Source: Bradyrhizobiaceae bacterium (GTDB lineage: Bacteria > Pseudomonadota > Alphaproteobacteria > Rhizobiales > Xanthobacteraceae). Taken from it: a stretch of 64,000 nucleotides of DNA. Made by a program: the position numbers and the translations under genes. This document shows positions 20,207 through 21,590 of the stretch, piece by piece. Location of the stretch: assembly GCA_947481685.1 (NCBI GenBank), contig CANKHA010000003.1, positions 62,001 through 126,000 of the forward strand. Direction: 5' to 3'. The notes beneath the pieces are model-generated. The model was not told the origin of the DNA. It was given only the letters and a program-made list of their open reading frames with translations, and did not search any database. Each line of letters begins with the position of its first letter. Within the stretch, counting starts at the first letter, position 1.

Positions 20207-21397
20207 TCAAGCCGCCTTCAGCGCCGTCAGCAGATCTTCCGTCAGATCGTCCGGATGCTCCAGCCCGACGGAGAGCCGCACCAGTCCATCGGTAATGCCA
20301 AGTTCCGCGCGCGCTTCCGGCGTGAGCCGCTGATGCGTCGTGGTGGCCGGATGCGTGATCAGGCTCTTGGCATCGCCGAGGTTGTTGGTGATCTTGATCA
20401 GCTTCAACGCATTCAGAAAACGGAATGCACCGGCCTTGCCGCCGGCGATCTCGAGCGCAATCAGGTTCGAGCCGGCGCGCATCTGCTTGCGCACGATGTC
20501 GGCCTGCGGATGGTCGGCGCGGCCGGGATAGATCAGCCGTGTGAGCTTGGCGTTTCCGGCGAGCGTGTCCGCGATCTTCGCCGCGGTCTCCGTCTGCCGT
20601 TCCACGCGCACGGATAAAGTCTCCAACCCCTTCAGCAACACCCAGGCATTGAACGGCGACATGGCTGGCCCGGTCTGGCGCAGCAGCATGTGAATATTGT
20701 CCTGGATGAATTTTTCAGAGCCCAGCACAACACCGCCGAGGCAACGGCCCTGGCCGTCGATATGTTTGGTCGCGGAATACACCACGCAATCGGCGCCGAG
20801 CTGCAGCGGGCTTTGCCACAGCGGTGTCGCGAACACGTTGTCGACGACAAGCGTTGCGCCACCCGCGTGTGCAATCTTCGCGACTTCCGCAATATCGACC
20901 ACTTCCAGCGTCGGATTGGTCGGCGATTCCAGGAAGAAAGTTTTGGTGTTGGGCCGCACCGCGTTGCGCCACTGGTTGAGGTCGGTACCGTCCACCAGCG
21001 TGCAGGCGACGCCGAAGCGCGGCATCAGGTCTTCCACCACATAGCGGCATGAGCCAAACAGCGCCTTGGCGGCAACGATGTGATCGCCGGCCTTCACCTG
21101 TCCCATCACCGAGGCGGTGACGGCGGCCATGCCGCTCGCGGTTGCGCGCGCGGCTTCCGCGCCTTCGAACGCGGCGATGCGGGCCTCAAACATTGCGACG
21201 GTCGGATTGGAAAAACGCGAATAGAGATAGCCCGGCTGCTCGCCCTTGAACCGCGCCTCGCAGGCTTCGGCGGTGTCATAGACGAAGCCCTGGGTGAGGA
21301 ACAAAGCCTCCGAGGTTTCGCCGAACTGGGAGCGCAGGGTGCCGGCGTGGAGCAGGCGGGTTTCGGGGCGATAATTGCGGTCGTCAGACGCGGACAT
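20207..21397 (-). CDS. metZ: O-succinylhomoserine sulfhydrylase MetZ
   Basis: 396 residues; the ATG at 21397 has AAGGAG at the right distance. Cys/Met-metabolism PLP enzyme: YSRFSNPT near the N-terminus, the SGMAA phosphate-binding turn, ESPTNPTLEV, and the PLP lysine in VYSATKHIDGQGRCLGG. It uses sulfide and O-succinylhomoserine to form homocysteine in methionine synthesis. Distinguished from MetB/MetC mainly by the SAM-II leader and by alphaproteobacterial habit; an O-acetylhomoserine preference cannot be excluded. Expression is predicted to be set by the riboswitch and terminator at 21447-21550. Confidence 0.92.
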   Translation of the reverse strand: MSASDDRNYRPETRLLHAGTLRSQFGETSEALFLTQGFVYDTAEACEARFKGEQPGYLYSRFSNPTVAMFEARIAAFEGAEAARATASGMAAVTASVMGQVKAGDHIVAAKALFGSCRYVVEDLMPRFGVACTLVDGTDLNQWRNAVRPNTKTFFLESPTNPTLEVVDIAEVAKIAHAGGATLVVDNVFATPLWQSPLQLGADCVVYSATKHIDGQGRCLGGVVLGSEKFIQDNIHMLLRQTGPAMSPFNAWVLLKGLETLSVRVERQTETAAKIADTLAGNAKLTRLIYPGRADHPQADIVRKQMRAGSNLIALEIAGGKAGAFRFLNALKLIKITNNLGDAKSLITHPATTTHQRLTPEARAELGITDGLVRLSVGLEHPDDLTEDLLTALKAA

Positions 21398-21446
21398 GCA
21401 CATCTCCTTTGGGGCCGGGTGCACGAAACGCCATGCGCGCGGCAAC

Positions 21447-21479
21447 AAAAAACCGGCCGAGGAAAAATATCCTGGCCGG
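21447..21479 (-). terminator. Riboswitch-associated terminator upstream of metZ
   Basis: On the minus strand, CCGGCCAGGA pairs with TCCTCGGCCGG (one bulged C) and is followed by six T (21452-21447), all before the metZ start. The 5' arm can instead pair with GGCCGGG at 21497-21491, forming a mutually exclusive 7-bp antiterminator. Confidence 0.8.
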
Positions 21480-21495
21480 GCACACGCGTCCCCGG

Positions 21496-21550
21496 CCTTT
21501 TAGCTCCTTGTTTAACGTGGCGGCAAGCCGGCCGGCTCAAATGACCACGG
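21496..21550 (-). ncRNA. SAM-II riboswitch aptamer
   Basis: Minus-strand leader of metZ. P1 is CGTGG/CCACG. The loop contains TCATTTGA and the GGCTTGCCG stretch, and the 3' part is TTAAACAAGGAGCTAAAA. CTTG in the loop can pair with CAAG downstream to form the SAM-II pseudoknot, and AGCTAAAA is the conserved 3' end. This matches the class known ahead of metA and metZ-type genes in alphaproteobacteria, where it binds S-adenosylmethionine. A single difference from the usual TGATTT (here TCATTT) is visible. Confidence 0.92.
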
Positions 21551-21561
21551 GATAAGGTCGG

Positions 21562-21590
21562 ATGATACGCCCGGCCTGTCTTCCCGTCAA
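21562..21590 (-). promoter_or_regulatory. metZ promoter
   Basis: Minus-strand TTGACG (21590-21585) and TATCAT (21567-21562) with a 17-bp spacer. The transcript would start near 21555, immediately before the SAM-II aptamer, which supports both calls. Confidence 0.75.

Follow-up and report, generated by a model that had tools for sequence, protein, structure and literature searches.

A SAM-II riboswitch upstream of metZ predicted to act by transcription termination, with its pseudoknot strand doubling as an antiterminator arm

A SAM-II riboswitch very probably turns metZ off through transcription termination in a Bradyrhizobiaceae bacterium, as judged from the sequence of its leader. The leader lies on the minus strand of the window, by which we mean the whole stretch of 64,000 nucleotides analysed (assembly GCA_947481685.1, contig CANKHA010000003.1, positions 62,001 to 126,000). 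It holds an identified SAM-II aptamer and four strands, labelled A to D (Table 1), whose complementarity is conserved among relatives beyond chance expectation. Strand B is complementary to both A and C, and C to D, so that A:B together with C:D excludes B:C. That the window's copy binds SAM, and that it then terminates transcription rather than permitting it, are predictions. The metZ leader offers a clean example of a SAM-II pseudoknot strand that doubles as an antiterminator arm.

A SAM-II aptamer precedes metZ

A preliminary description of this DNA had placed a promoter, a SAM-II aptamer and the motifs GGCCGGG, CCCGGCC and GGCCGG-TTTTTT on the minus strand, and every one of them was found there. 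The promoter has 10 of 12 consensus letters, and shuffles of the region contained a mean of 0.1 such sites; its spacing suggests a transcription start at about 21555. The covariance-model search that had been proposed as a check returned a match along the entire RF00521 model (positions 1-79 of 79) with 73.4 bits (E-value of 1.3e-14), above the curated gathering score of 36. The P1 helix is present, with no non-standard pair marked in the Rfam alignment. Each of the SAM-II core segments AUUUGA, CUUGC, GUUAAACAA and GCUAAA was found in that alignment, and these letters presumably take part in the binding pocket. The window's copy is expected to bind SAM.

The gene downstream belongs to methionine biosynthesis. 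Its product scored above the cut-offs of two NCBIfam equivalogs for metZ, with 741.6 bits for NF005696 (cut-off 675) and 559.7 bits for TIGR01325 (cut-off 510.05). The likely start codon is the ATG at 21397-21395; a second in-frame ATG lies nearby at 21403. The ATG at 21397 is 82 nt past the Rfam match and 90 nt past GGCCGGGGAC, close to the distance of about 100 nt beyond the aptamer given earlier. A dCTP deaminase gene lies on the opposite strand, divergent from metZ. A second CCCGGCC occurs on the minus strand at 21413-21419, directly ahead of the metZ Shine-Dalgarno sequence, and may offer strand B or D another partner; the leader of the most similar metZ (L126) has no CCCGGCC at the matching place.

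Table 1. Features of the metZ leader and gene, in positions of the window
Feature	Position	Strand	Remarks
Sigma-70-type promoter TTGACG-17-TATCAT	21562..21590	minus	TTGACG 21590-21585, 17-nt spacer, TATCAT 21567-21562
SAM-II aptamer (SAM_alpha, RF00521)	21480..21558	minus	Rfam covariance-model match
P1 helix CGTGG/CCACG and loop	21516..21549	minus	CGTGG 21549-21545, CCACG 21520-21516; Rfam alignment
Strand A, GCCGGCCGGC	21527..21536	minus	likely 5' strand of P2; CCGGCC 21535-21530 pairs strand B
Strand B, GGCCGGGGAC	21488..21497	minus	likely 3' strand of P2 and antiterminator 5' arm; GGCCGGG 21497-21491
Strand C, CCCGGCC	21474..21480	minus	common to antiterminator B:C and terminator C:D
Strand D, GGCCGG, and U tract TTTTTT	21447..21458	minus	terminator 3' side; GGCCGG 21458-21453, TTTTTT 21452-21447
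metZ Shine-Dalgarno sequence AAAGGAG	21404..21410	minus	6 nt to ATG 21397; outside aptamer
metZ, O-succinylhomoserine sulfhydrylase, 396 aa	20207..21397	minus	NCBIfam equivalogs NF005696, TIGR01325

Four strands and two exclusive hairpins

The RF00521 model scores only P1 and not the P2 pseudoknot, and P2 was recognised through complementarity alone, between CCGGCC at 21535-21530 and GGCCGG at 21497-21492. We take GCCGGCCGGC and GGCCGGGGAC to be the two P2 strands known from SAM-II structures. Together with joint changes of both strands in leaders L012, L028 and L170, this complementarity and those structures indicate that strand A, in the loop of P1, and strand B most likely form P2. The self-complementary GCCGGCCGGC, of which the preliminary description had said that it might join the switch, is thus most likely no optional addition but the 5' strand of P2 and the segment that would link SAM binding to the relay. 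The SAM-II pseudoknot has been described as the part that meets the expression platform (PMC2258182).

Between P2 and the start codon, strands C and D form a hairpin of -17.6 kcal/mol followed by six U, which has the form of an intrinsic terminator. Built on the end of the aptamer, the B:C hairpin (-18.5 kcal/mol) has the form of an antiterminator, and the two exclude each other through their common strand C. Their near equal energies fit the need of a switch. A simple terminator scan of the region reported 0 sites here, probably because the hairpin has a bulged base.

A ligand-free fold computed without the terminator 3' arm and without pseudoknots consisted of P1 and B:C. In the minimum-energy fold of the complete leader, which takes no account of pseudoknots, ligand or the order of transcription, P1 was broken, A paired with D and B paired with C. 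The A:D pairing arises because the strands copy each other, A being like C and B like D, and we claim no importance for it in the cell.

On these pairings, bound SAM would keep P2 (A:B) closed, leaving C free to form the C:D hairpin before the U tract. This terminator would stop RNA polymerase near 21447 and release an RNA whose length we infer to be roughly 110 nt. Without SAM, B would pair with C once C is transcribed, the terminator would be blocked and metZ would be transcribed.

Comparison with known SAM-II systems

This mechanism, on which the preliminary description was right, is not new in principle, since the Sinorhizobium meliloti metZ element has already been predicted to terminate and terminators are known in many SAM-II elements. 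That description erred in presenting transcription termination as unusual for the class. Termination is the most frequent association of SAM-II in alpha- and beta-proteobacteria according to PMC2258182, and Corbino et al. 2005 (PMC1273637) remarked that in many SAM-II elements a putative terminator separates P2 from the gene. Their metA element (RF00521) resembles the window's leader in aptamer sequence and length, in a promoter just before P1, in a methionine-biosynthesis gene downstream and in a terminator between P2 and that gene; within the portion of PMC1273637 that describes it, we found no difference of substance. Leyn et al. 2014 report SAM_alpha ahead of genes that they name metY, and of metA and metX genes (PMC4239095).

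The closest counterpart is the S. meliloti metZ SAM-II element with the sRNA RZ, which has the same gene and class and for which Scheuer et al. 2022 predicted termination on SAM binding (PMC9373788). At high SAM, its leader gave more of a ~100-nt sRNA and less metZ mRNA, compared with about 110 nt inferred for the window's leader. The S. meliloti element comes with RNA data, whereas the window's copy is known from sequence, and the two were compared in gene, class, predicted mechanism and sRNA length. Activity of the S. meliloti metZ promoter depends on the medium as well, and high SAM stabilises the RNAs (PMC9373788). Termination as such is therefore predicted, rather than isolated, for metZ in the results of that paper.

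These S. meliloti results bear on a second reading, in which a constitutive terminator limits metZ and mainly makes a small RNA containing the riboswitch, with SAM acting on RNA stability or translation. It would agree with the stabilisation of both metA and metZ RNAs at high SAM in S. meliloti, and with the metA riboswitch of that species, whose terminator was not predicted to be affected by SAM (PMC9373788). The authors could, however, predict no SAM-II-driven antiterminator for metA in the account given there, whereas here strand C can pair with B as well as with D. This double complementarity is kept in 113 of 174 leaders (0.7 expected; see below), and we consider a constitutive terminator unlikely.

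A translational switch is the best-understood SAM-II mechanism (PMC9373788). In the Sargasso Sea metagenome element, which shares the aptamer class and the P2 pseudoknot, the Shine-Dalgarno sequence lies within the pseudoknot (PMC9373788), so that SAM-bound P2 hides the ribosome-binding site. Some relatives that lack a terminator could also use this output, as the partner strand of B could pair with their Shine-Dalgarno region. In the window, however, no Shine-Dalgarno sequence was found within P2: GGCCGGGGAC ends at 21488, and AAAGGAG (21410-21404, start codon at 21397) lies 77 nt beyond strand B, with the U-tract terminator between them. We rejected translational control of the window's own copy on this position outside P2, and hold it to be very unlikely.

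Conservation of the relay in relatives

A search of relatives gave RF00521 in 57 of 61 genomes, and a search of the family, among the matches listed, gave it in 118 of 119; both searches include the window's own genome and have 37 genomes in common. The matches listed gave 187 leaders, the window's own included, of which 127 precede metZ in 62 genera; weaker family-search matches and the partial match G050:C303 were left out. Removing 13 leaders of a divergent SAM-II subtype (L173-L186 without L178) left 174 classic leaders. Start codons were picked by script from the metZ alignment.

We applied two criteria. The loose one is energy-based and asks for a hairpin at a T tract, with an energy of -8 kcal/mol or lower, and for an antiterminator that overlaps it. 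The strict relay consists of two runs of at least 6 pairs with at most 1 G-U each, at least 4 nt of strand C in common and the second run ending at the T tract. Composition alone makes hairpins of the loose kind easy, as 452 of 2000 shuffled versions of the window's leader passed and 93 of 2000 were as strong. The argument therefore rests on the strict pairing criterion, which was reached by 53 of 10000 such shuffles.

By the loose criterion, 155 of the 174 classic leaders have a hairpin, and in 139 of the 155 an antiterminator overlaps it. Against an expectation of 0.7, the strict relay occurs in 113 of the 174, and this result, together with the anatomy of the window's leader, supports well the earlier proposal that CCCGGCC is common to a terminator and an antiterminator that exclude each other. 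By gene, the relay occurs in 72 of 127 metZ leaders (0.5 expected) and 41 of 47 others. A terminator-type hairpin is found in 109 of 127 metZ leaders, and by the loose criterion 100 of the 109 have an overlapping antiterminator. At least one such terminator-antiterminator metZ leader occurs in 36 of 44 genera in the family and 15 of 18 outside. These counts bear on whether the arms are lost in relatives keeping the aptamer, which would have spoken against the mechanism; 55 of 127 metZ leaders are without the strict relay. A simple pattern picked out the aptamer core at 48 of 80 named metZ loci; a T tract occurs in 39 of the 48, and 13 show the strict relay.

GC-rich DNA of this kind abounds in GGCCGG-type words (71 GGCCGG and 60 CCGGCC on the plus strand of the window), and shuffles readily pass the loose criterion. 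It is nevertheless hardly credible that the three copies are chance words unrelated to regulation, and this reading was rejected: the strict relay is rare in shuffles and turns up in one or more metZ leaders of 38 of 62 genera (31 of 44 in the family and 7 of 18 outside), and the terminator pattern CCGGCC-N8-20-GGCCGGTTTTTT has a single match in the window but none in 100 window shuffles.

Two observations concern individual leaders. In the metZ leaders L105, L018 and L099, strand B and the terminator are separated by an insertion of some 40 nt that brings a second GGACAT segment, which looks like a partial duplication of the leader. The record named Bacillus subtilis SK6B4 has a metZ locus (L251) whose leader is near-identical to that of Pseudochrobactrum (L249); this assembly is probably mislabelled or contaminated.

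Covariation of the pairing arms

Covariation of the arms among relatives, which had also been put forward as a check, was analysed in 121 distinct leaders after duplicate removal, with L160 left out. At six of the seven strand B positions, 118 or more of the 121 leaders have the identical base. Such near-invariance is expected if the aptamer needs strand B, and makes covariation little informative. B position 1 lacks a pairing partner in 15 of the 121, and position 6 does so in 9. Matched changes were found in three distant relatives, with A-U replacing G-C in the B:C pairing of L012 and L028 and U-A replacing C-G in L170; strands A and B changed jointly in the same three leaders. Other leaders show one-sided G-U changes, chiefly at B positions 1-2. 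The predicted covariation is thus present in these informative leaders but thin, as most B positions barely vary.

Leaders without a terminator

By the criterion used, 18 of 127 metZ leaders lack a terminator. In most of them, a long partner for strand B lies a little upstream of the Shine-Dalgarno sequence, for example AGGCCGGGGA with TCCTCGGCCT, and the end of this partner is able to pair with the Shine-Dalgarno region (GCCTC/GAGGC). Genus g23 has another partner, CCCCGGTT, with CCGGT/ACCGG. A first criterion for such a Shine-Dalgarno relay was passed by 8 of the 18 leaders (1.0 expected). A second, different criterion, drafted after the first result and the sequences were seen and with the start codon of L120 changed to the TTG shared in its genus, was passed by 13 of 18 (1.1 expected). 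Sixteen of the 18 passed either criterion, and L165 and L178 passed neither. The test is not fully specific, as 14 and 7 of the 109 terminator-bearing metZ leaders also passed the first and second criterion, respectively (3.3 and 3.7 expected).

The 16 leaders with a predicted Shine-Dalgarno relay come from six genera, which form two groups in a metZ tree. This tree was made by a quick method from 72 of the 127 proteins, namely a single terminator-type row for each genus plus the 18 others. A supported branch unites the two groups with four terminator-bearing genera. On this tree, 2 changes are required for the translational type; it may have had a single origin. In three of the four terminator genera, g16, g32 and g71 (L029, L102, L107, L108, L122 and L123), the antiterminator is predicted to extend 3-6 nt into the terminator 3' arm. 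In the fourth, g24, B pairs with the 5' arm as usual.

These pairings predict that the relay was rewired from a terminator to a Shine-Dalgarno hairpin. We see about an even chance that strand B is a fixed adaptor whose partner has been exchanged within one family, being the terminator 5' arm in most genera, a strand extending into the 3' arm in g16, g32 and g71, and, in the six genera without a terminator, a strand that shares letters with a segment able to pair with the Shine-Dalgarno region. Orthologous leaders would then have switched between control of transcription and of translation with the same logic. As part of this proposal, the window's four strands may swap partners, with A:B and C:D on one side and B:C and A:D on the other, an exchange that the terminator, being effectively a copy of the P2 helix, makes possible. 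The 127 metZ leaders in 62 genera include orthologous leaders of both predicted output types, and this set could show how a riboswitch that stops transcription becomes one that blocks translation while its sensor stays unchanged.

A divergent SAM-II subtype

Nine of the leaders of the divergent SAM-II subtype set apart above (L173-L177, L179 and L182-L184) have scores of 31-42 bits, four of the nine under the Rfam cut-off. They have a P1 of the GCGCC/GGGCGC kind, a CAGCTTGCGGG core and a different P2, and precede proteins that by eye resemble sulfonate-type ABC substrate-binding proteins. The window's genome itself contains a second, sub-threshold SAM-II-like leader with 33.6 bits (L180, G000:C90:3055-3130, minus strand), which has its own GC-rich hairpin and T tract followed by a reading frame of 85 aa. 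L181, a leader of the divergent subtype with 32.8 bits, precedes a protein that by eye is like LLM-class flavin monooxygenases, and has a terminator-like hairpin and T tract between aptamer and gene.
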